From assembly GCA_017395045.1 (NCBI GenBank), contig JAFPWG010000027.1, positions 113,637 to 177,636 on the forward strand: DNA of 64,000 nt, written 5' to 3'. A program made the translations under genes and the position numbers. Shown here one piece after another: positions 51,346 through 64,000 of the stretch (the stretch's first letter is position 1; each line of letters begins with the position of its first letter). The DNA comes from Bacteroidales bacterium (GTDB lineage Bacteria; Bacteroidota; Bacteroidia; Bacteroidales; UBA932). The notes beneath the pieces were generated by a model. The model saw only the letters and a list, made by a program, of their open reading frames with translations. It was not told where the DNA came from and searched no databases.

Positions 51346-52116
51346 ATGAGAATCATTTTGCTGCAGACTTCCCCTACGTGGGGAGATCCCGAAAAGAGCC
51401 GGGAGGACGCCCGCCGGATGCTGATGGGCACGCCCAAGGCGGACCTGGTCGTCCTGCCTGAAATGTTCTCCACCGGTTTTGTCACCCAGCCGGAAGGGGT
51501 CGCCGAAAGCGAAGACGGCGAGTCCCTCCAGTGGATGAAGGACTATGCCCGGAACAAGGATTGCGCCGTCGCCGGCAGCGTTTCGGTCCGTCTCTCGGAC
51601 GGAACGTACAGGAACCGTTTCTATTTCGTCTTTCCGGACGGGCATTTCCAGTATTATGACAAGCACCATCTGTTCACATATGCCGGCGAACATGAGCACT
51701 ATACGGCCGGTGAGGAACGTGTGATTGTCGAACACGCCGGATTCCGGATCCTGCTTCAGGTTTGTTACGACCTCCGTTTCCCCGTATTTTCCCGGAACCG
51801 CCTCGTGGACGGGAAGCCGGAATACGACCTGATCCTGTATGTCGCCAGCTGGCCGCAGCAGCGCATGGATGCCTGGGACGGGCTTCTCAAGGCCCGCGCC
51901 ATTGAAAACGTATGCTTCGTGGCGGGAGTGAACCGGGTGGGAAAGGATCCCGGAAACCTTTATTCCGGACATACCAGTTTATATGGTCCTCGGGGGGAGT
52001 TGCTTTTAATTTGTAAGGAAAGTCGGATTGACATCATAGAATATGAAATAAAACATTCTGTTTTGGACAATTTCCGTCAAAATTTCCCCGCATTGGCGGA
52101 TGCAGATTATAAATAA
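51346..52116 (+). CDS. Omega-amidase-like nitrilase family protein
   Basis: This 256-residue carbon-nitrogen hydrolase has the Glu-Lys-Cys triad: Glu in V-L-P-E-M-F, Lys in Y-D-K-H-H-L-F and Cys in Q-V-C-Y-D-L-R-F-P. The M-F-S-T-G-F and H-L-F-x-x-A-G-E-H motifs are those of YafV/Nit2-type omega-amidases, which hydrolyse 2-oxoglutaramate or 2-oxosuccinamate to the oxoacid and ammonia. The first beta strand (R-I-I-L-L-Q-T) begins directly at the ATG, so the start is secure. Confidence 0.9.
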   Translation: MRIILLQTSPTWGDPEKSREDARRMLMGTPKADLVVLPEMFSTGFVTQPEGVAESEDGESLQWMKDYARNKDCAVAGSVSVRLSDGTYRNRFYFVFPDGHFQYYDKHHLFTYAGEHEHYTAGEERVIVEHAGFRILLQVCYDLRFPVFSRNRLVDGKPEYDLILYVASWPQQRMDAWDGLLKARAIENVCFVAGVNRVGKDPGNLYSGHTSLYGPRGELLLICKESRIDIIEYEIKHSVLDNFRQNFPALADADYK

Positions 52117-52131
52117 TTTTCCTAAATTTTT

Positions 52132-52163
52132 CTTGTTTTTTAAAAAGTAGTTTCTTAGATTTG
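52132..52163 (+). promoter_or_regulatory. Promoter of the ilv-leu operon
   Basis: CTTG at 52132-52135, 20 bases, TAGATTTG at 52156-52163. Transcription would begin near 52169, about 20 bases before the leader peptide ATG. Confidence 0.65.
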
Positions 52164-52188
52164 TCTCCGGTTAGTTAAAGAAACCGAG

Positions 52189-52242
52189 ATGAACAACGAA
52201 CTCGTCCTTGTCCTTGTCCTTATTATCCTCGTCCTTGTATAG
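52189..52242 (+). CDS. ilvL: ilv operon leader peptide
   Basis: The 17-codon frame reads MNNELVLVLVLIILVLV then TAG. From codon 5 to 17 all 13 codons are branched-chain: six Leu, five Val, two Ile. It lies between a promoter and a terminator in front of ilvD. The design is that of a classical attenuation leader, in which a ribosome pausing for lack of Leu-, Val- or Ile-tRNA changes the fold of the downstream RNA. No strong ribosome-binding sequence is visible, as is normal in Bacteroidetes. Confidence 0.88.
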   Translation: MNNELVLVLVLIILVLV

Positions 52243-52247
52243 GCGCG

Positions 52248-52319
52248 GACTGGAAAGGCATAAGGCGAGCCGATGAACCTCAACCCCTTCCCAGTCTTGT
52301 ACAGGGAAGGGGCTTTTTT
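52248..52319 (+). promoter_or_regulatory. Antiterminator/terminator attenuator of the ilv-leu operon
   Basis: Terminator: CCCCTTCCC (52284-52292) with GGGAAGGGG (52304-52312), nine perfect pairs, followed by C and six T. Antiterminator: GACTGGAAAGG (52248-52258) with CCTTCCCAGTC (52286-52296), ten of eleven pairs. The two structures share 52286-52292 and cannot form together. The antiterminator strand starts 5 bases after the leader stop codon, so a ribosome resting there covers it and permits termination, while one stalled earlier on the Leu/Val/Ile run leaves it free. Confidence 0.85.
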
Positions 52320-52339
52320 ATAGTTAGTTAGTAGTGTTT

Positions 52340-54172
52340 ATGAAGCATCCCTTCAGGAGCAGCGTCACGTTTGTCGGACGCAGGATGGCCGGAGCCCGTG
52401 CCTTATGGCGTGCGGCCGGAATGAAACCGGAGCAGGTCGGAAAGCCTGTCATCGCCGTCGTGAATTCCTTCACGCAATTCGTCCCGGGCCACACCCACTT
52501 GCACGACGCCGGTCAGCTGGTTAAGTTCGAAATTGAAAGGCTGGGCTGTTATGCGGCCGAATTCGACACCATCGCCGTGGACGACGGCATCGCCATGGGG
52601 CACGACGGGATGCTGTATTCCCTCCCTTCCCGCGAGATCATCGCCGACAGCGTGGAATACATGGTCAACGCACATAAGGCCGATGCGATGGTATGCATCA
52701 GCAACTGCGACAAGATCACCCCCGGGATGCTGATGGCCGCGATGCGGCTGAACATCCCCGCCGTGTTCGTATCCGGCGGCCCGATGGAAGCGGGCGTGGC
52801 GGGAGACCGGAAACTGGACCTCATCGACGCGATGGTCCAGTCGGCCGACAACTCCCTGACCGATGAAGAAGTCGCGCGCGTGGAAGCGGCTTCCTGTCCC
52901 GGATGCGGCTGCTGCTCCGGCATGTTTACCGCGAATTCGATGAACTGCCTTACCGAAGCCATCGGTTTGTCCCTGCCCGGTAACGGAACCGTCGTGGCGA
53001 CGCACCGGAACCGGACGGAACTATTCCGGAAGGCGGCGAAACTCATCGTGGAGAACGCCTGGAAGTATTATCGGGACGGAGACGAACGCGTCCTTCCCCG
53101 AAGCATTGCCAGCCGGGGGGCGTTCCTGAATGCCATGGCGCTGGATATCGCCATGGGCGGTTCCACCAATACCGTCCTGCACCTTCTGGCTGTCGCCCAG
53201 GAAGCCGGTGTGGACTTCACGATGGCCGACATCGACCGTCTTTCCCGCCAGGTGCCCTGCATCTGCAAGGTGGCCCCCAACACGGCCCGCTACCATGTGG
53301 AAGACGTGAACCGGGCCGGCGGCGTCGTTTCAATCATGAGGGAACTGGCCTTTACCGGCCTCGTCGACACCACCCTTTACCGGGTGGACGGGATGACCCT
53401 CGGAGAGGAGATCGAACGCTATGCCATCCTTTCGGACCACGTGACGGAAGACGCCCTGAACCTGTACCGGAGCGCCCCTGCAGGCCGATTCAGTACGGAA
53501 ATGGGCTCCCAGGCGACCTGCTATGGGGAACTGGATACGGACCGGGAGACCGGCTGCATCCGTTCCGTCGCCCACGCTTATACGAAGGATGGCGGACTGG
53601 CGGTTCTCCGCGGCAATGTCGCTGCGGACGGATGCGTCGTGAAAACCGCCGGCGTGGACGCTTCCATCTGGAAGTTCACCGGCCCGGCGAAGGTCTTTGA
53701 TTCCCAGGAAGCCGCCTGTGACGGCATCCTGGGGGGCAAGGTGAAAAGCGGGGACGTCGTGGTGATCACGTACGAGGGCCCCGCCGGAGGTCCCGGCATG
53801 CAGGAGATGCTGTATCCCACCTCCTACCTGAAATCCGTCCACCTGGGCAAGGAGTGCGCCCTCCTGACCGACGGCCGCTTCAGCGGCGGCACGTCCGGCC
53901 TCTCCATCGGCCATATCTCTCCGGAGGCGGCTGCCGGAGGCGCCATCGCCCTGGTCCGGGACGGGGACATCATTGAGATCGACATTCCCGCCCGTTCCAT
54001 CCGGGCCCTCCTGTCCGGGGAGGAACTGGACCGGCGCCGGAAGGAAGAACTGTCCCGGGGAAAGGAGGCCTTCACGCCGCCTTTCCGCAAGCGGACGGTA
54101 TCCAGGAGCCTGCAGGCGTATGCGAAAATGGTAAGCTCCGCAGACAAGGGAGCGGTGAGAGTGATTGAATAA
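52340..54172 (+). CDS. ilvD: Dihydroxy-acid dehydratase
   Basis: This 610-residue iron-sulfur enzyme dehydrates 2,3-dihydroxy-isovalerate and its isoleucine homologue to the oxoacids. Cluster cysteines are in [10 protein letters not shown] and [16 protein letters not shown]. The ATG at 52340 is preferred over a GTG two codons earlier. Full length (E. coli 616). It is the first structural gene after the attenuator, 20 bases past the T-run, and its end overlaps the region just before ilvB. Confidence 0.97.
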
Positions 54173-54185
54173 ACCGGAAACAGAA

Positions 54186-55886
54186 ATGATTACAGGATCG
54201 GAAGCACTTTGGCGCGCCCTCATCGAGGAGGGAGTGGATACCGTCTTCGGGTATCCCGGCGGGCAGATCATGCCCGTGTACGACAGCCTGTGCCAATATA
54301 GGGACCAGGTCCGCCACATCCTTGTCCGCCACGAGCAGGGAGCGATCCACGCAGCGGAAGGGTATGCCCGTGAGAAAGGGGACCCCGGCGTGGTGATCGT
54401 TACGTCCGGACCCGGGGCGACCAACGTCATCACCGGCGTCCACGACGCGATGACGGATTCCACCCCGGTGGTCGTGATCACCGGCCAGGTGCCTTCTGCC
54501 TCGTTGGGTACGGACGCTTTCCAGGAGGCCGATGTCATCGGCCTGACGGGCCCGATCAGCAAATGGAACTACCAGATCCGGACGGCGGACGAGGTGGCGT
54601 GGGCCGTCGCCCGGGCGTTCTATATCGCCCGGACCGGACGTCCCGGCCCCGTGGTCCTGGACTTCACGAAGGACGCACAGGTGGGGCTGACGGACTTCCA
54701 TTTCGAGAAATGCAACTTTATCCGCAGCTACGTGCCGGATCCGAAGATTTCGGACCAGGCCGTGCACAAGGCCGTCGCCCTGCTGGACGAGGCGGACCGT
54801 CCCTTCGTCGTTTTCGGTCAGGGCATCATCCTGGGCCATGCGGAGAAAGAACTGGAGGCTTTCCTGACGAAAGGCGACATCCCCGCCGGATCGACGCTCC
54901 TGGGACTCAGTGCCTTACCGTCGGATTTCCCGCTCTACCGGGGCATGCTGGGCATGCACGGGAACATCACGCCCAACATGATGACGAATGCCTGCGACGT
55001 GCTGGTCGCCGTCGGAATGCGGTTCGACGACCGCGTCACCGGGGCGGTGAGCGCCTATGCCCGGCAGGCGAAAGTGATCCACATCGACATCGACCCGTCC
55101 GAGATCGGGAAGATCATTCCCGTGGAAGTGGGCATCCGGGGCGATGCGAAGAAAGTGCTCTCCATCCTGACGGAACGGATGCAGGAACGCCGTCACCCCG
55201 GATGGTGCAATGGCTTCGTCCGTTGTGACGACGTCGAGAAGGAAAAGGTCATCGACCCCGAGGTGCATCCTGCGGAAGGCTTGCTCCGGATGGGGGAGGT
55301 GGTGGACCGGGTGGTCCGCGCCACCGGCGGAAAGGCCGTCGTGGTGACCGACGTGGGCCAGAACCAGATGATGGGGGCCCGTTATTCCCGCTTCACGCAG
55401 TCCCGCAGTTTCATCTCTTCGGGCGGACTGGGTACGATGGGGTACGGCCTTCCCGCCGCCATCGGCGCCAAGGTGGCCCGGCCGGACCGGACGGTGTGCC
55501 TGTTCGTCGGCGACGGCGGCATCCAGATGACGATGCAGGAATTCGGCACCGTCATGCAGGAGGGTATCGGCGTGAAAGTCATCCTCCTGAACAATAACTG
55601 GCTGGGAAACGTACGCCAGTGGCAGGAACTCTTCTTCGGGCGCCGCTACTCGGAGACCCGGATGCTCAATCCGGACTACGCGATGATTGCTCGCGCCTAT
55701 GGAATCAATTGTATTACAGTAGAAAACAGGGAATCACTTGAACCGGCACTGGAAGAAATGTTCTCCAATGACGCGCCCTGTCTCCTGGACGTCCATGTCC
55801 TGGAGGAGGGGATGGTGATGCCCATGGTGCCCCCCGGAAAGGGAATCCACGAAATCATGGTTACGGACAGCGAATGGTTCAGCTAG
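54186..55886 (+). CDS. ilvB: Acetolactate synthase large subunit
   Basis: This 566-residue thiamine-diphosphate enzyme makes acetolactate or acetohydroxybutyrate. The N-terminal domain has the catalytic Glu in V-R-H-E-Q-G-A-I-H-A-A-E-G. The ThDP-binding motif G-D-G-G-I-Q-M-T-M-Q-E-F through N-N-N-W-L-G is in the C-terminal domain. The ATG at 54186 is preferred to an in-frame TTG at 54165 that lies inside the end of ilvD. The gene is followed 2 bases later by its regulatory subunit. Confidence 0.96.
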   Translation: MITGSEALWRALIEEGVDTVFGYPGGQIMPVYDSLCQYRDQVRHILVRHEQGAIHAAEGYAREKGDPGVVIVTSGPGATNVITGVHDAMTDSTPVVVITGQVPSASLGTDAFQEADVIGLTGPISKWNYQIRTADEVAWAVARAFYIARTGRPGPVVLDFTKDAQVGLTDFHFEKCNFIRSYVPDPKISDQAVHKAVALLDEADRPFVVFGQGIILGHAEKELEAFLTKGDIPAGSTLLGLSALPSDFPLYRGMLGMHGNITPNMMTNACDVLVAVGMRFDDRVTGAVSAYARQAKVIHIDIDPSEIGKIIPVEVGIRGDAKKVLSILTERMQERRHPGWCNGFVRCDDVEKEKVIDPEVHPAEGLLRMGEVVDRVVRATGGKAVVVTDVGQNQMMGARYSRFTQSRSFISSGGLGTMGYGLPAAIGAKVARPDRTVCLFVGDGGIQMTMQEFGTVMQEGIGVKVILLNNNWLGNVRQWQELFFGRRYSETRMLNPDYAMIARAYGINCITVENRESLEPALEEMFSNDAPCLLDVHVLEEGMVMPMVPPGKGIHEIMVTDSEWFS

Positions 55887-55888
55887 CG

Positions 55889-56446
55889 ATGGAAAACGAA
55901 ATAAAAGAATATACGGTGACCATCTACACCGAAAACCAGATCGGCCTCCTGTCGCAGATCACGAACGTGTTCACGCGCCATGGCCTGAGCATCTGGAGCC
56001 TCTCCGCCGGCGCCACGTCCATGGAGGGCGTCCACAACATCACCATCGTGACCTGCGGGCTGGAGAAGAAGGTGAAGGAAAGCGTCCAGCAGATCGAGAA
56101 GCGCGTGGACGTGATCAAGGCCTTCTTCTATACGGCCGACAAGATCGTTTACCGGGAACTGTGCCTGTATAAGGTGCCTACGCTGGCCCTCCTGCAGCAT
56201 GGTGACATCGAGGACCTTCTGAACCGCTACCACGCCCGCATCGTGGAGATGAACAAAGTGTTCACGGTAATCCAGAAGACCGGTTATTCGGACGAGACCG
56301 CCCGTCTTCACGATGAGCTGAAACCCGTCGGGGTGCTCCAGTTCGTGCGTTCCGGACGGATCGCGGTGTCCCGGGCCGAACAGGAACCCGTGTTCAAGTT
56401 CCTGAGGAAGCGGGAAATGGAAAGGAAACAACAATCAAACAAATAA
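55889..56446 (+). CDS. ilvN: Acetolactate synthase small (regulatory) subunit
   Basis: This 185-residue subunit confers valine feedback control. The N-terminal ACT domain (Y-T-V-T-I-Y-T-E-N-Q-I-G-L-L-S-Q-I-T-N-V-F-T-R-H-G) spans about 8-80 and is followed by the C-terminal ACT-like domain. The usual N-R-G-V-L stretch is replaced by N-Q-I-G-L-L, as is common in Bacteroidetes. An in-frame ATG at 55874 overlapping ilvB is possible; 55889 gives the family-like start. Confidence 0.93.
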   Translation: MENEIKEYTVTIYTENQIGLLSQITNVFTRHGLSIWSLSAGATSMEGVHNITIVTCGLEKKVKESVQQIEKRVDVIKAFFYTADKIVYRELCLYKVPTLALLQHGDIEDLLNRYHARIVEMNKVFTVIQKTGYSDETARLHDELKPVGVLQFVRSGRIAVSRAEQEPVFKFLRKREMERKQQSNK

Positions 56447-56452
56447 CAGACT

Positions 56453-57502
56453 ATGGCAAAGATCAATTTCGGCGGCGTCGACGAGAATGTCGTGACCCGC
56501 GAAGAGTTCACCCTGGAAAAGGCGCGCGAAGTCCTCAAGGACGAAGTCATCGCCGTCATCGGTTACGGCGTGCAGGGTCCGGGACAGTCCCTGAACCTGA
56601 AGGACAACGGCTTCAACGTCATCGTGGGCCAGCGCAAGGGAAAGACCTACGACAAGGCCGTCGCGGACGGCTGGGTGCCGGGCGTGAACCTGTTCGAGAT
56701 CGAAGAGGCCTGCGAGAAGGGTACCATCATCCAATACCTGGTTTCCGATGCGGCCCAGATCGAGGTCTGGCCCACGGTCAAGAAGCACCTGACCGCCGGG
56801 AAGGCCCTGTATTTCTCCCACGGTTTCGGCATCACCTACAAGGATCGCACGGGTATCGTCCCGCCGGCCGACGTGGACGTGATCATGGTGGCTCCGAAAG
56901 GCTCCGGCACCTCCCTGAGAAGGCTGTTCCTGCAGGGACGCGGCGTGAATTCTTCCTATGCCGTGTACCAGGATGCGACCGGCCGTGCCCTGGAACGCAC
57001 CCTGGCTCTCGGAATCGGCGTGGGTTCCGGTTACCTGTTCGAGACCGATTTCAAGCGTGAGGTCTATTCCGACCTCACCGGTGAGCGCGGCACGCTGATG
57101 GGCGCCATCCAGGGCATCCTTTCCGCCCAGTATGAGGTGCTTCGCGAGCACGGCCACAGCCCGTCGGAGGCATTCAACGAGACGGTCGAGGAACTGACGC
57201 AGTCCCTGATGCCGCTCTTTGCGGAGAAAGGCATGGACTGGATGTATGCCAACTGCTCCACGACCGCCCAGCGCGGCGCCCTGGACTGGATGGGCCCGTT
57301 CCACGACGCTACGAAGCCTGTTTTCGAGAAGCTCTACCAGCGTGTAGCCAGCGGCGAGGAAGCCCAGGTTTCCATCGACGCGAACTCGAAGCCGGACTAC
57401 CGGAAAGGCCTTGAGGCTGAACTGAAAGCGCTCAGGGAGAGTGAACTCTGGCGCACCGGCGCCGCCGTACGTAAACTCCGTCCTGAAGAGATTGACCGAT
57501 GA
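56453..57502 (+). CDS. ilvC: Ketol-acid reductoisomerase
   Basis: This 349-residue NADPH-dependent enzyme isomerises and reduces acetolactate. The Rossmann motif is [10 protein letters not shown] at about residue 37-46, followed by G-Q-R-K-G-K-T. The knotted C-terminal domain has [14 protein letters not shown] and the S-x-T-A-Q-R-G-A segment. Length matches the class found in Bacteroidetes (about 347). It overlaps leuA by 4 bases. Confidence 0.96.
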
Positions 57503-58992
57503 GCGACCGCGTCTACATATTCGATACGACGCTCCGCGACGGGGAACAAGTCCCGGGTTGCCAGCTGAACACCGTGGAGAAGATCCAGGTGGCGAAGGCC
57601 CTGGAACTCCTTGGCGTGGATGTCATCGAGGCCGGTTTCCCCATCTCCAGCCCGGGTGATTTCAACTCGGTTGTGGAGATATCGAAGGCGGTGACCTGGC
57701 CCACCGTATGCGCCCTTTCACGTGCGGTGGAAAAGGATATCGACCTGGCTGCCGAAGCACTGAAATATGCGAAACGGGGGAGGATCCATACGGGCATCGG
57801 CACGTCCGACGAGCACATCCGCTACAAGTTCAATTCGAACCGGGAGGAGATCCTGGAGCGTGCCGTCCGGGCCGTCAAGTACGCCAAGAAGTATGTGGAA
57901 GACGTTGAATTCTACGCGGAAGACGCCGGCCGAACCGACAACGAGTACCTGGCCCGCGTCATCGAAGCGGTGATCAAGGCTGGGGCGACCGTGGTGAATA
58001 TCCCCGATACCACCGGCTACTGCCTGCCGGAAGAATACGGCGCCAAGATCAAGTACCTGACGGAGCACGTGGACGGTATCCATAAGGCCGTGATTTCCAC
58101 GCACTGCCACAACGACCTCGGGATGGCGACGGCCAACACGATGGCCGGCCTGCTGAACGGAGCCCGCCAGTGCGAGGTCACGATCAACGGCATCGGCGAA
58201 AGGGCCGGGAACACCGCCCTGGAGGAGATCGCCATGATCCTGAAGGCCCACAAGGGTATTCCGCTGGAGACGAATGTCAATACGAAGCGGATCTACCCGA
58301 CGAGCCGGATGGTTTCTTCCCTGATGAACATGCCGGTCCAGCCCAACAAGGCCATCGTGGGCAAGAATGCATTCGCTCATTCTTCCGGCATCCACCAGGA
58401 CGGCGTGCTCAAGAACGCCGGTACCTACGAGATCATCGACCCCTCCGACGTGGGTGTGGACACGAATTCCATCGTGCTGACCGCCCGCAGCGGCCGGGCT
58501 GCCCTCAAATACCGCCTGGAAGTGAACGGGGTGAAGCTGGACGACGAGAAGATGGACAAGGTCTATGAGGCCTTCCTCCGTCTGGCCGACAGCAAGAAGG
58601 AGATCCACGACGACGATATCCTGATGCTCGCCGGGGCCGACCGAGCCGCCGCCCGCCACATCAAGGTGGACTGGCTGCAGGCGACGAGCGGCATCGGGAT
58701 GAAGCCCGTGGCTTCCATCGGCCTGGACATTGCCGGGGAGAAGTTCGAGGCGGCCGCGACCGGAAACGGCCCCGTGGATGCCGCCATCAACGCCCTCCGG
58801 CAGATCGTCCGCCGGCAGATGACCATCAACGAATTCACCATCCAGGGTGTTACCAGGGGCTCCGACGACTGCTGCAAGGTGCATATGCAGGTGGAGCACG
58901 AGGGACGCATCTATTACGGGTTCGGCGCCAGCACCGACATTGTGACCGCCTCGATCGAGGCGTATGTGGACTGTATCAACAAAAGTGTATGA
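57499..58992 (+). CDS. leuA: 2-isopropylmalate synthase
   Basis: This 497-residue enzyme condenses acetyl-CoA with 2-oxoisovalerate, the first step of leucine synthesis. The DRE-TIM motif [12 protein letters not shown] is at residues 10-21, metal ligands are in S-T-H-C-H-N-D-L-G, and the C-terminal LeuA regulatory domain (about 370-497) is present. Overlaps of 4 bases with both ilvC and leuC indicate coupled translation. Confidence 0.96.
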
Positions 58993-60383
58993 ACACCCTC
59001 TTTGACAAGATCTGGGATGCGCATGTCGTCCAGCACGTGGACGGCGGCCCGGACCAGCTGTATATCGACCGCCTTTACTGCCACGAAGTGACGAGTCCCC
59101 AGGCCTTTGACGGTCTGCGCGCCCGCGGAATCAGGTGTTTCCGTCCGGAAAAGATTTTCTGCATGCCGGACCACAATACGCCGACGGAAGGGCAGGACAG
59201 GCCTATTGAGGACCCTGTTTCCAAAAAGCAGGTGGACGCCCTGGCGGCCAATGCGGCCGAATTCGGTCTCGTCCACTACGGGATGATGGACCCGGACAAC
59301 GGCATCATCCACGTCGTGGGACCGGAGAAAGGCCTGTCCCTGCCGGGAATGACCATCGTCTGCGGAGACTCCCACACTTCCACGCACGGAGCGGTGGGTG
59401 CGGTGGCGTTCGGCATCGGCACCAGCGAAGTGGAGATGGTGCTGGCCTCCCAGTGCATCCTCCAGCAGAAGCCCCGGTCCATGCGGATCCGGATTGAAGG
59501 AAAGCTCGGGAAAGGCGTGACAGCCAAGGACATGGCCTTGTACCTGATGAGCAAACTGACGACCAGCGGTGCTACCGGATACTTTGTCGAATACGCCGGC
59601 TCCGCGGTCCGTTCCCTGTCCATGGAAGGCCGCCTTACACTGTGCAATCTCTCCATCGAGATGGGCGCCCGCGGTGGTTTTATCGCCCCGGACGAGACGA
59701 CCTTCGCTTATCTGAAAGGACGCGATTACGCGCCGGAAGGGGAGGATTGGGACAAGGCCGTCGAGGCGTGGAAAAAGCTGAAGAGCGACGACGACGCCGT
59801 TTTCGACCGGGAGGTCGTCTATCATGCCGAAGACATCCGGCCGATGATTACCTACGGTACCAATCCGGGAATGGGGACGGCCGTGGACGGCACGGTTCCC
59901 ACACTGGCAGATATCCCTGCCGAAGGCCGGACTTCTTTCGGCAAAGCCTTGAACTATATGGGCTTCCAGCCGGGCGAGAAGCTGCTCGGGAAGCCGGTCG
60001 ACTATGTGTTCCTCGGCGCTTGCACGAACGGACGGATCGAGGATTTCCGGGCATTCGCCTCCGTTGTGGCGGGTCGAAGGAAAGCGCCCGGCATCGTTGC
60101 CTGGCTTGTTCCGGGTTCCTGGAAGGTCCGCCGCCAGATTGAGGAGGAGGGGTTGGACAAGGTCCTGGAAGCGGCCGGCTTCGAGATCCGCCAGCCGGGC
60201 TGCTCCGCGTGTCTGGCCATGAACCCGGATAAGGTTCCCGCCGGAAAGTACTGCGTATCTACCAGCAACCGTAATTTCGAAGGCCGTCAGGGCCCCGGGT
60301 CCAGGACGCTTCTCGCCAGTCCGCTCACGGCTGCCGCTGCCGCCGTCACCGGCGTCATCACCGATCCCAGAGAACTGCTATGA
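58989..60383 (+). CDS. leuC: 3-isopropylmalate dehydratase large subunit
   Basis: This 464-residue [4Fe-4S] protein isomerises 2- to 3-isopropylmalate with LeuD. Motifs: D-H-N-T-P-T near residue 58, [10 protein letters not shown], and cluster cysteines in L-G-A-C-T-N-G-R and [10 protein letters not shown]. It overlaps leuD by 4 bases. The same dehydratase would serve the citramalate branch if the downstream synthase is CimA. Confidence 0.97.
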
Positions 60384-60970
60384 AACAGAAATTCAACATC
60401 ATAGAAAGCACCTGTGTCCCGCTCCCGCTGGAGAACGTGGACACGGACCAGATCATCCCCGCCCGCTTCCTGAAGGCGACGACGCGGGACGAACGATTCT
60501 TCGGAGAGAACCTCTTCCGCGACTGGCGCTTCGGTCCGGACGGGACACCGGTAAAGGACTTTGTGCTGAACGACCCGCGCTACGGCGGGGAAATCCTTGT
60601 GGCCGGCCGGAACTTCGGTTCCGGTTCCAGTCGCGAGCACGCGGCGTGGGCGATTGCAGGCTATGGATTCAAAGTGGTGATTTCCAGTTTCTTCGCGGAT
60701 ATCCACAAGAACAACGAGTTGAACAATTTCGTCCTTCCCGTGGTGGTTTCCCCGGCATTCCTGCAGGAACTCTTCGACACGATCGCGGCGGACCCGTCCG
60801 CCAAGGTCCGGGTGGATGTCCCGAACCAGATGGTGACGAATCTCACTACCGGGGTGAGTGAACCCTTTGAACTGAATCCATACAAGAAATACTGTCTGGT
60901 GAACGCACTGGACGATATCGACTATCTGCTCCTGCAGAAGGAGAAGATCGAAGCCTACGAGCGGAAATGA
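60380..60970 (+). CDS. leuD: 3-isopropylmalate dehydratase small subunit
   Basis: This 196-residue swivel-domain subunit has [13 protein letters not shown], the active-site [12 protein letters not shown] and the [12 protein letters not shown] segment typical of LeuD. The length matches the enterobacterial form (201). Overlaps of 4 bases join it to leuC and to the next synthase gene. Confidence 0.97.
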
Positions 60971-62490
60971 TCGAAATCCTGGATACCACCCTCCGCGACG
61001 GCGAGCAGACCGCCGGCGTCTCGTTCAACCCGGACGAGAAGCTGGCCATTGCGCGCCTGCTGCTGGAAGAATTGAAAGTGAACCGGATCGAGGTGGCGTC
61101 GGCGCGGGTATCCCGCGGCGAACAGGAGGCATTTGCCAAAATCTGCGCCTGGGCGTCCACCTGCGGAAAACTGGATGCGGTGGAAGCCCTCGGGTTCGTG
61201 GATGGCGGCGTATCCGTGGACTGGATCGCCTCGGCGGGCGGACAGGTCCTGAACCTCCTGACGAAGGGATCGCTCCGTCACGTGACGGCCCAGCTCCGGA
61301 AAACCCCGGTGCAGCATCGGGACGACATACTCCGGGAAATCCAGCTGGCCGTCTCCAAAGGGTTGAAAGTCAATGTTTATCTGGAAGACTGGTCCAATGG
61401 GATGGCCGAGTCGCCGGACTATGTGTTCTTCCTGGTGGACGCCTTGAAGGACGCTCCGGTGGAGCGGATCATGTTGCCGGATACGCTGGGGATCCTGAAT
61501 CCATCGCTGGCCGGCGCCTACTGCAGGACCATGGTGGACCGCTACCCGGGTATCCGTTTCGACTTCCATCCGCACAATGACTACGACCTGGCGGCCGCCA
61601 ATGCCTTCGAGGCCGTGAAGGCTGGTGTCAGCGGCCTGCACGTCACCGTGAACGGGCTGGGGGAGCGGACGGGCAACCTGCCCGTTTCCAGCGCCCTGGG
61701 CATCCTGAACGACCACCTGAAGGCCGACAATACCCTGGTGGAAAGCCGCTTGATGCACGTGTGCCGGTATGTGGAAACGATTTCGGGCGTCCGGATTCCC
61801 GCGAACAAGCCTCTCGTCGGCGAATTCGCCTTTACCCAGACCAGCGGCATCCACGCCGACGGGGACCGGAAAGGCGGGCTGTACCAGAATGCGCTGATGC
61901 CCGAGCGTTTCGGACGCCATCGGCATTATGCCCTCGGGAAGACCAGCGGGAAGGCGAACATCGTCAAGAACCTGGAGAGCCTGGGAATTACCCTGTCGCC
62001 GGAACAGATGAAGCAGGTGACGGCGCGCGTGGTGGAGCTGGGGGACAAGAAGGAATCCCTGAGCCCCGCGGACCTGCCGTTTATCGTAGCGGATGTCCTG
62101 AAGGGCGATTTCTCCGCCGTCCCGGACCGGATCCACATCATCAATTACAGCCTGCAGCTGACCCGGGGGATGCGCCCGGTATCGAACCTGCGCATCGACA
62201 TGGACGGGACGGAATATGAGGAGACTTCGGCCGGCGACGGCCAGTATGACGCCTTCATGAAAGCGCTCTGGAAAATCTACGACCGGCTGGGACGCCGGCA
62301 TCCTAAGCTTACGGATTACGTGGTCAAGATTCCGCCCGGGGGCAAGACCGACGCCCTCGTGGAGACGACCATCTCCTGGGAGATGGACGGCCGCGGCTTC
62401 AAGACCCGGGGCGTGGATTCGGACCAGACCGAAGCCGCCATCAAGGCGACGGTCAAGATGTTGAACCTAATCGAAAACAATCGGATATGA
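60967..62490 (+). CDS. Second LeuA-like synthase, probably citramalate synthase
   Basis: This 507-residue DRE-TIM protein has [12 protein letters not shown] (residues 6-17), metal ligands in [11 protein letters not shown], and a C-terminal LeuA-type allosteric domain (about 385-507). It is only distantly similar to the leuA four genes upstream. By position between leuD and leuB, and by its CimA-like features, it probably condenses acetyl-CoA with pyruvate to citramalate, a route to 2-oxobutyrate and isoleucine. An alternative is a diverged isopropylmalate synthase. Confidence 0.75.
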
Positions 62491-63536
62491 AACTGAGAAT
62501 CGCGAAACTCCCCGGCGACGGCATCGGACCGGAAGTCGTGGAACAGGCCGTCAAGGCCGTGGATGCCGTCTGCGCCCGCTTCGGGCACGAGGCATCCTAT
62601 ACATACGGATATGTGGGCGCCTGCGCCATCGACCGGTTCGGGGACGCCTATCCGGCGGAAACCCACGCCCTTTGCCTGGACAGCGACGCCGTCCTCTTCG
62701 GAGCCGTCGGCGATCCCAGGTACGACAACGACCCCACTTCCAAGGTCCGTCCGGAGCAGGGCTTGCTGGCCATCCGCAAGCAGCTTGGCCTGTATGCCAA
62801 CCTTCGCCCGGTGGAAACCTTCAAGTCCCTCGTGGACAAGTCTCCGCTGAAGACGGAGCTGGTGGACGGGGCCGATTTCCTGTGTATCCGCGAGCTCACC
62901 GGAGGCATGTATTTCGGCGAAAAAGGCCGCAAGGACGGCGGAAACACCGCCTATGACACCTGCATCTATTCCCGCGCCGAGGTGGAACGGATCCTGAAGC
63001 TCGCGTTCGAATATGCTGGCCGGCGCCGGAAGCACCTTACGGTGGTGGACAAGGCCAACGTACTGGAATCGTCGCGCCTGTGGCGGCAGGTCGCCCAGGA
63101 GATGGAACCTTCGTATCCCTGCATCAAGGTGGATTACATGTTCGTGGACAATGCCGCCATGCAGCTCATCCGCTGGCCGAAATTCTTCGACGTGCTGGTA
63201 ACCGAAAACACCTTCGGGGACATCCTTACGGACGAAGCTAGCTGCATTTCCGGGTCGATGGGCCTGCTGGCGTCGGCCTCGGTCGGGGAGCATACCTCCC
63301 TGTTCGAACCCATCCACGGTTCCTATCCCCAGGCGGCCGGGAAGAACATTGCGAATCCTGTCGCGGCCATCCTGTCCGCCGCGATGATGTTCGAATACGC
63401 CTTCGGGCTGATGGAGGAAGGAAAGGCCATCCGCACGGCGGTGGCGGCTTCCCTCGAAGCCGGCGTGACCACCGAAGACCTCGGCGGGACCTGCTCCACT
63501 TCCGAAGTGGGCGACTGGATTGCATCAAAAATATAA
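62487..63536 (+). CDS. leuB: 3-isopropylmalate dehydrogenase
   Basis: This 349-residue NAD-dependent beta-decarboxylating dehydrogenase has [10 protein letters not shown] near the start, R-x-L-T-G-G-M-Y-F-G, the metal-binding D-I-L-T-D-E segment and the NAD site [14 protein letters not shown]. Length is typical (about 355). It overlaps the preceding synthase by 4 bases and precedes ilvE by 7 bases. Confidence 0.97.
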
Positions 63537-63543
63537 CGACGAT

Positions 63544-64000
63544 ATGAAACAGATTGATTGGAAAACCCTGGGCTTCGACGCCTACCGGACCCGTACGGTC
63601 GTCATTTCCCATTACAAGAACGGGAAATGGTCCACTCCCAAGATGACGGAGACTTTCTCCTTTACTTTCGACCCTTTCGCACAGGTATTCCACTATGCGA
63701 TTTCCTGTTTCGAAGGCCTGAAAGCCTTCCGGCAGAAGGACGGCCGCGTCGCGATGTTCCGTCCGGACCAGAACGCTGCCCGGATGCAGCGTACGGCCGA
63801 CTATCTGGGAATGCCCTGCCCGTCGGAAGAGATGTTCATGAAGATGTGCGAAGACTGTCTCCGGGGTAACACCGAGTTCCTTCCGCCGTATGGACAAGGC
63901 TGCTCGGTCTATCTTCGTCCGTTGCTGGTGGGAATGCATCCCCAGATGCAGTTGGTGCCATATCCGGAGGCCGTTTTCGCAGTCATGTGCGCTCCGGTGG
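63544..64000 (+). CDS. ilvE: Branched-chain amino acid aminotransferase (3' end outside window)
   Basis: The frame opens at the ATG at 63544 and is still open at the window edge, giving the first 152 residues of a protein expected to be about 340 long. The F-H-Y-A-I-S-C-F-E-G-L-K-A-F-R segment and V-Y-L-R-P-L-L-V-G are typical of the fold-type IV transaminase IlvE. The PLP lysine lies beyond the window. It would carry out the final amination to Leu, Val and Ile and completes the operon. Confidence 0.93.
   Translation, partial: MKQIDWKTLGFDAYRTRTVVISHYKNGKWSTPKMTETFSFTFDPFAQVFHYAISCFEGLKAFRQKDGRVAMFRPDQNAARMQRTADYLGMPCPSEEMFMKMCEDCLRGNTEFLPPYGQGCSVYLRPLLVGMHPQMQLVPYPEAVFAVMCAPV

Follow-up and report, generated by a model that had tools for sequence, protein, structure and literature searches.

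A predicted ribosome-mediated transcription attenuator upstream of the ilv-leu operon of a Bacteroidales bacterium

Introduction

The region between 52133 and 52340 of the window, by which the whole stretch of 64,000 nucleotides analysed here is meant, raises the question of whether the ilv-leu operon of a Bacteroidales bacterium is controlled by a transcription attenuator of the classical, ribosome-mediated kind. Bacteroidales are among the dominant gut bacteria. Lopatovskaya et al. (2010) are said to have possibly predicted attenuators in Bacteroidota.

Leader-peptide attenuation has already been suggested for this phylum and the idea is not new there, since the accessible part of PMC9723704 reports 'strong clues' for it in Flavobacterium psychrophilum. 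The same part names hisG and pheA among the structured 5' elements of F. psychrophilum, and it describes structures without known signal in some 5' regions of Bacteroidota. The attenuators suggested for F. psychrophilum resemble the one proposed here in phylum and in their association with amino-acid operons, but this part of the paper gives no ilv case and no detail of the mechanism. Small frames of B. thetaiotaomicron are described as reminiscent of leader peptides in the accessible part of PMC7366714, and such leaders in Bacteroidota are not mentioned in the accessible parts of PMC8305728 and PMC9026213. According to the accessible parts of PMC10272879, PMC11857589 and PMC1262725, attenuation for branched-chain and other amino acids is represented by Corynebacterium ilvBNC and by leader peptides of Actinobacteria, which likewise lie outside Proteobacteria, but in another phylum and before another first gene. 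No experimental case of attenuation in Bacteroidales was found in the accessible parts of the open-licence literature, which omits most subscription papers.

Organization of the locus

Direct reading of the + strand from 52133 to 52340 gives, in this order, a promoter, a leader, strand 2, a terminator, a T-run and ilvD, and the coordinates of the original prediction, in which an attenuator had been proposed for this locus, hold. The elements upstream of ilvD are as follows.

52133..52163, + strand: candidate promoter of the Bacteroidetes primary sigma factor type, with TTG at 52133-52135, a 20-nt gap and the -7 box TAGATTTG at 52156-52163
52189..52242, + strand: leader peptide frame MNNELVLVLVLIILVLV, 17 codons, with ATG at 52189 and TAG at 52240-52242
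52201..52273, + strand: protector fold predicted by folding, with strand 1 in the leader codons and its partner at about 52255-52273, within about 52246-52275
52248..52258, + strand: strand 2, the 5' arm of the antiterminator, GACTGGAAAGG, starting 6 nt past the leader stop codon
52284..52297, + strand: strand 3, common to the antiterminator (52286-52296) and the terminator (52284-52292)
52304..52312, + strand: strand 4, the 3' arm of the terminator, GGGAAGGGG, from sequence and folding
52314..52319, + strand: T-run and expected termination site, from sequence

The box TAGATTTG lies 5' of the leader and matches TAnnTTTG, which is given as the -7 consensus of Bacteroidetes in the accessible part of PMC7366714. 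It is the single match to this pattern on the + strand of the window beyond 50797. The promoter that had been proposed before the leader is located by sequence reading and pattern scan as a TTG and a TAnnTTTG match, and it is a candidate by consensus. Across both strands of the window, TAnnTTTG occurs 26 times against 9.2 expected, and none of 100 shuffles gets to 26, so that this box probably marks promoters in the genome of the window.

The box also accompanies the homologous leaders of relatives, which are described below. It is found at most 75 bases upstream in 66 of 77 leaders (6 of the 83 have too little upstream sequence) and in 141 of 1540 shuffles, and 60 of those 66 boxes are located 16-36 bases before the start codon. 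When four Shine-Dalgarno-like 5-mers were searched for, just one of the 83 homologous leaders was found to contain any of them. This near-absence suggests that translation of the leader begins, as it seems, without Shine-Dalgarno contact. Such a start is usual in Bacteroidota.

The 17-codon frame contains 13 consecutive Leu/Val/Ile codons (codons 5-17), exactly as had been described, and its Leu-Val codons double as strand 1 of the protector fold. Its Leu codons are four CTT and two CTC, and Leu usage in nine operon genes and two neighbouring frames is 56% CTG and 10% CTT. The choice of CTT and CTC in the leader may slow the ribosome or may serve the protector fold. The genes that follow the leader are listed below with their profile matches.

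52340..54172, + strand: ilvD, dihydroxy-acid dehydratase (TIGR00110, 772 bits, cut-off 618)
54165..55886, + strand: ilvB, acetolactate synthase large subunit (TIGR00118)
55874..56446, + strand: ilvN, acetolactate synthase small subunit (TIGR00119)
56453..57502, + strand: ilvC, ketol-acid reductoisomerase (TIGR00465)
57499..58992, + strand: leuA, 2-isopropylmalate synthase (TIGR00973)
58989..60383, + strand: leuC, 3-isopropylmalate dehydratase large subunit (TIGR00170)
60380..60970, + strand: leuD, 3-isopropylmalate dehydratase small subunit (TIGR00171)
60967..62490, + strand: citramalate-synthase-like gene (best match CimA of Leptospira type, NF042433, 616 bits, below the cut-off of 950)
62487..63536, + strand: leuB, 3-isopropylmalate dehydrogenase (TIGR00169)
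63520..64000, continuing past the window end, + strand: ilvE, branched-chain aminotransferase (TIGR01123, 307 bits, cut-off 250)

The proposed ten-gene ilv-leu operon is thus recovered as nine genes with profile matches and ilvE, which crosses the window end and stops at the equivalent of 64584, about 580 bases outside the window. Adjacent genes overlap or almost touch, which makes a single transcript likely. The ten genes include the citramalate-synthase-like gene (60967-62490) and no ilvA. This combination suggests that isoleucine is made from pyruvate.

Alternative folds of the leader transcript

Strand 2 (GACTGGAAAGG) forms Watson-Crick pairs with CCTTCCCAGTC (52286-52296) at 10 of 11 positions, the single exception being an A.C mismatch at 52254/52290. 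The terminator arms CCCCTTCCC (52284-52292) and GGGAAGGGG (52304-52312) form a perfect stem of 9 bp with a loop of 11 nt. Both pairings, together with the T-run between the terminator and ilvD, agree with the original prediction. The two folds had also been claimed to be mutually exclusive, and this is upheld by sequence, folding, covariation and a test on 87 regions described below, the antiterminator using the 5' arm of the terminator.

When the terminator stretch 52276-52320 is folded alone, its z is -3.48 and none of 200 shuffles is as stable. A terminator scan limited to loops of at most 8 nt calls none at 52284-52312, where the loop is 11 nt. The antiterminator stretch 52243-52297 is not unusually stable when folded alone (z = -1.00; 34 of 200 shuffles equally stable), and its support therefore comes from comparison with relatives. 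The protector region 52189-52285 folds with -28.7 kcal/mol (z = -2.57), and this strong protector fold is a feature absent from the original prediction. Of 300 synonymous recodings of the leader, 30 reproduce the three-state behaviour of the window, so that the protector fold is not established as a selected feature of the window.

Conservation upstream of ilvD

The ilvD genes of relatives were found by protein searches, and up to 350 bases upstream of each were scanned with one script. A full call requires three parts: a small frame rich in Leu/Val/Ile codons, a terminator, and a sequence complementary to the terminator 5' arm that starts -40 to +12 nt from where the frame ends. The regions were labelled as Bacteroidota or other phyla by the author from kinship labels and record titles. 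Two regions (L001, from the same place as L002, and L132, from the same gene as L012) and four partial or paralogous ilvD matches (L019, L021, L022 and L023) were left out before the 139 Bacteroidota-labelled regions were counted.

All three parts are called in 83 of these 139 regions, in 0 of 26 ilvD regions from other phyla and in 0 of 695 dinucleotide shuffles of the homologous regions. The expectation that the Leu/Val/Ile leader, strand 2 and the terminator recur in relatives, with both stems covarying, is thus borne out. The 83 aligned segments are all distinct, although the genomes and species records may overlap: 58 are from genomes of the order of the window, in 33 families according to kinship labels read by hand, and the other 25 are species records, including Bacteroides graminisolvens (L058) and Odoribacter laneus (L117). 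The two nearest relatives both have the complete set. One of them, L003 (IlvD 89% identical), keeps all parts and forms a 2:3 stem of its own with 13 of 14 pairs; the other, L019 (90% identical over an IlvD fragment and outside the 139), keeps all parts with the leader MNVHVLGLSLLILVE.

The sequence and length of the leader vary widely among relatives, and its Leu/Val/Ile codons persist. It is plausible that a single leader senses Leu, Val and Ile; 81 of the 83 leaders hold all three. In 58 of the 83, the start of strand 2 lies within 6 nt of the stop codon's end. A terminator-type hairpin with a T-run is kept, and its distance to ilvD varies.

No full call is made in 56 of the 139 Bacteroidota-labelled regions. 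These include several Prevotella records, in which no leader is visible, and some regions in which parts are seen by eye under the thresholds of the script, for example L009 with the leader MTNIVSASLIILVLVVLLVRL. In two members of the genus of the window (L007 and L008), neither a leader nor a terminator is called upstream of ilvD, which looks like a loss inside this genus.

The scan was extended to 40 ilvD regions of class- or phylum-level relatives in other families, which were drawn from 147 genomes of the phylum with an ilvD match and do not include the 29 loci L172-L200. A full call is made in 9 of these 40 regions (7 of the 20 labelled as the same class and 2 of the 20 labelled as the same phylum) and in 0 of 200 shuffles. 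The ilvD matches listed outside the order of the window are only about 33-58% identical. A different type of IlvD therefore seems to be used there, and 9 of the 40 still have a leader-type attenuator.

Modelled effect of ribosome position on the fold

The fold was modelled for a transcript that ends after strand 3, with the ribosome represented by keeping unpaired all bases from 15 upstream to 12 downstream of the first A-site base. In this model, the antiterminator of the window forms 8.8-9.8 of its 10 pairs when the A-site is at any of codons 5-16, which are the first 12 of the 13 Leu/Val/Ile codons. With the ribosome at codon 4 it forms 1.6 pairs; codons 1-3, the last Val codon, the stop codon and the ribosome-free transcript all give about 0. 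When strand 4 is included, 4.8-9.0 of the 9 terminator pairs form at equilibrium for every one of the 12 stall positions. This result indicates that the switch must be kinetic, being decided during transcription. In the standard attenuation model, the choice is likewise made during transcription.

A relative was scored as on when the antiterminator forms at 30% or more of its Leu/Val/Ile codons, and as off below 25%. By this measure 79 of the 83 relatives are on along the Leu/Val/Ile codons and off once the ribosome is at the stop codon; the off state is favoured in advance by the requirement of the caller that strand 2 start -40 to +12 nt from the end of the frame. The distance from the stop codon to strand 2 had been held to suit control by a ribosome, and this is supported by the switching of the window in the model and by the behaviour of these 79 relatives, the rows being preselected near the stop codon. 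A protector state, in which the antiterminator is off without a ribosome, is found in just 22 of the 83, and 19 show all three conditions.

These results bear on the possibility that the RNA switch is real but is sensed by a protein, a tRNA (T-box) or a metabolite, with no ribosome involved. The Bacteroidota 5' structures without known signal in the accessible part of PMC9723704 would be in keeping with such a sensor. We consider it very unlikely, because the Leu/Val/Ile codons are kept in a frame that ends near strand 2, because the fold in the model switches with the position of the ribosome, and because known elements do not account for the region. Rfam gives nothing above gathering in the window save a tRNA elsewhere in it, and nothing above gathering at 14 other loci (9 homologous ilvD loci and 5 hisG/trpE loci), the sub-threshold matches being far below the cut-off.

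Covariation of the two stems

The 83 called segments were aligned with MAFFT and compared with shuffled and slid versions. In the 3:4 terminator stem, 95.1% of cells are paired, 10 of 11 pairs are changed on both sides somewhere, and the covariation is 0.443, compared with 0.233 in shuffled and at most 0.236 in slid versions. In the 2:3 antiterminator stem, 83.8% of cells are paired, a figure inflated by the selection of the rows partly on strand-2 complementarity, 8 of 10 pairs are changed on both sides, and the covariation is 0.226, compared with 0.144 in shuffled and at most 0.119 in slid versions. Both stems exceed the shuffled and slid controls in cells paired, in cells changed on both sides and in covariation score. 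By two other measures the 2:3 stem is unremarkable: at least as many doubly changed pairs (8) are seen in one slid version and in 18 of 500 shuffles, and at least as many pair types (24) in two slid versions and in 3 of 500 shuffles. In the MAFFT alignment, strand 2 of the window is shifted by one base from its proper register, to the disadvantage of the 2:3 stem.

Because of the selection on strand-2 complementarity, the test was rerun on 87 regions for which only a leader and a terminator had been required. The median strand-2 score is 23.0 in these regions and 13.5 in shuffles. Strand 2 beats the shuffles at p <= 0.05 in 70 of the 87 regions and fails to do so in 17.

A plain or constitutive partial terminator behind the upstream gene, accompanied by a hydrophobic frame that arose by chance, would explain the terminator and its T-run, and an amidohydrolase-like gene on the same strand (51346-52116) does end at 52116. 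This explanation is scarcely credible, because the promoter box sits between that gene and the terminator, because leader, strand 2 and terminator recur jointly (in 83 of the 139 regions and in none of the 695 shuffles) and because strand 2 covaries with strand 3. Hardly any more room is left for the idea that the leader acts on translation of ilvD rather than on termination: the ilvD start is only 20 nt past the T-run, as translational attenuation might have it, but the terminator hairpin and T-run exclude this start, and relatives keep a terminator-type hairpin with a T-run at a variable distance from ilvD.

Proposed mechanism and comparison with known attenuators

We consider it highly probable that a classical ribosome-mediated transcription attenuator controls the ilv-leu operon of the window, as judged computationally from its parts, from their conservation and covariation and from the logic of the folds. 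It is assigned to the classical kind because the defining features that a sequence can reveal are present, namely the codon run, the terminator, an exclusive antiterminator, the geometry and a candidate promoter. The protector fold stands apart from these, since the window shows it but 30 of 300 recodings do so as well and only 22 of 83 relatives share it. A control mechanism of the E. coli type thus very probably operates in Bacteroidales too.

We infer the start site, translation of the leader, stalling, termination and the effect on the operon as follows. RNA polymerase would start near 52170, and a ribosome would translate the short leader at once. When Leu-, Val- or Ile-tRNA is scarce, the ribosome would stall inside the 13-codon run and open the protector fold, leaving strand 2 (52248-52258) free to pair with strand 3. 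The 2:3 pairing would block the terminator, and the ten ilv-leu genes would be transcribed. When all three are plentiful, the ribosome would reach the stop codon and cover or re-fold strand 2; strand 3 would then pair with strand 4, and the polymerase would terminate in the T-run at about 52314-52319.

The attenuators of E. coli hisL and thrL likewise combine a short leader containing consecutive control codons with an antiterminator near the leader end and a terminator with a T-run. In the same fold model, both behave much like the window. The hisL antiterminator forms at each of the 7 His codons and in no other state; that of thrL forms at 11 of 12 Thr/Ile codons but not at the stop codon, and reaches 0.37 without a ribosome. 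Unlike these two, the present leader has Leu/Val/Ile codons and a Bacteroidota-type promoter, and its homologues rarely have a Shine-Dalgarno-like 5-mer (1 of 83) and mostly have no protector state. The leader of E. coli ilvL is similar in that a single leader with Leu, Val and Ile codons precedes an ilv operon (ilvGMEDA), and its leader, terminator and strand 2 are also picked up by the same scan. It differs in having 32 codons and a strand 2 within the coding frame, and its fold profile is mixed (0.95 without a ribosome and 0.73 at the stop codon). The leu genes of E. coli form an operon separate from ilvGMEDA.

The two differences from textbook attenuators, the lack of Shine-Dalgarno sites and of a protector state in most members, are worth a test. 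Without a protector state, an untranslated leader would be on, as opposed to off in textbook E. coli. If a ribosome does steer termination here, the coupling of transcription to translation in this phylum would have to be tight enough to allow it, despite the absence of Shine-Dalgarno sites. The predicted attenuator, which is conserved, covaries and matches no Rfam family, also provides directly testable predictions for Bacteroides strains.

Predicted leaders of other amino-acid operons

Upstream of hisG in relatives, a His-run frame is found in 24 of 27 regions and the full set in 21 of 27, against 0 of 270 shuffles. The 21 include a region of the window's own genome (L251, G000:C31), in which the His-run leader MNLRINNKHHHHLVFTR is accompanied by a strand 2 at the leader stop, a terminator with a T-run and the box TACCTTTG. 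In the fold model this leader is on over 4 His codons and off without a ribosome and at the stop codon. This region is a second predicted attenuator in the genome of the window. That the small frame before ilvD is a functional hydrophobic (membrane) micropeptide with incidental hairpins, as its 13 hydrophobic residues in a row might suggest, is the least probable reading of all, because leader sequence and length vary widely while the Leu/Val/Ile codons stay, because the start of strand 2 is no more than 6 nt from the stop codon's end in 58 of 83 regions, and because a membrane role does not explain His-run leaders at the same place before hisG. Encoding the leader peptide of an attenuator is the most likely role of the small frames upstream of both ilvD and hisG.

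Upstream of trpE, WW frames occur in 8 of 13 regions and in 6 of 130 shuffles, and the full call is made in just 2 of 13 (L269 and L270), with 1 of 130 shuffles also called, so that the Trp test is overall weak and suggestive only. Inspection by eye of six trpE regions of relatives (L269, L270, L272, L275, L276 and L279) gives WWW or WW frames followed by a terminator, and these small frames are likely Trp leaders. We lean slightly towards a general use of attenuation in amino-acid operons of Bacteroidales, at least those for Ile/Val/Leu and His and partly that for Trp, with leaders that lack Shine-Dalgarno sites and mostly lack a protector state; in most members, a leader that is not translated would then be on.

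Leaders with Thr runs are rare. Such a run is found in just 2 of 20 regions upstream of aspartokinase-homoserine dehydrogenase genes, none being present upstream of this gene in the window's own genome, and L343 has no start motif. The frames of L333 and L334, which lie upstream of this gene, contain TTTTT or TTT and share PWGV near the end, and these two are possible Thr leaders.
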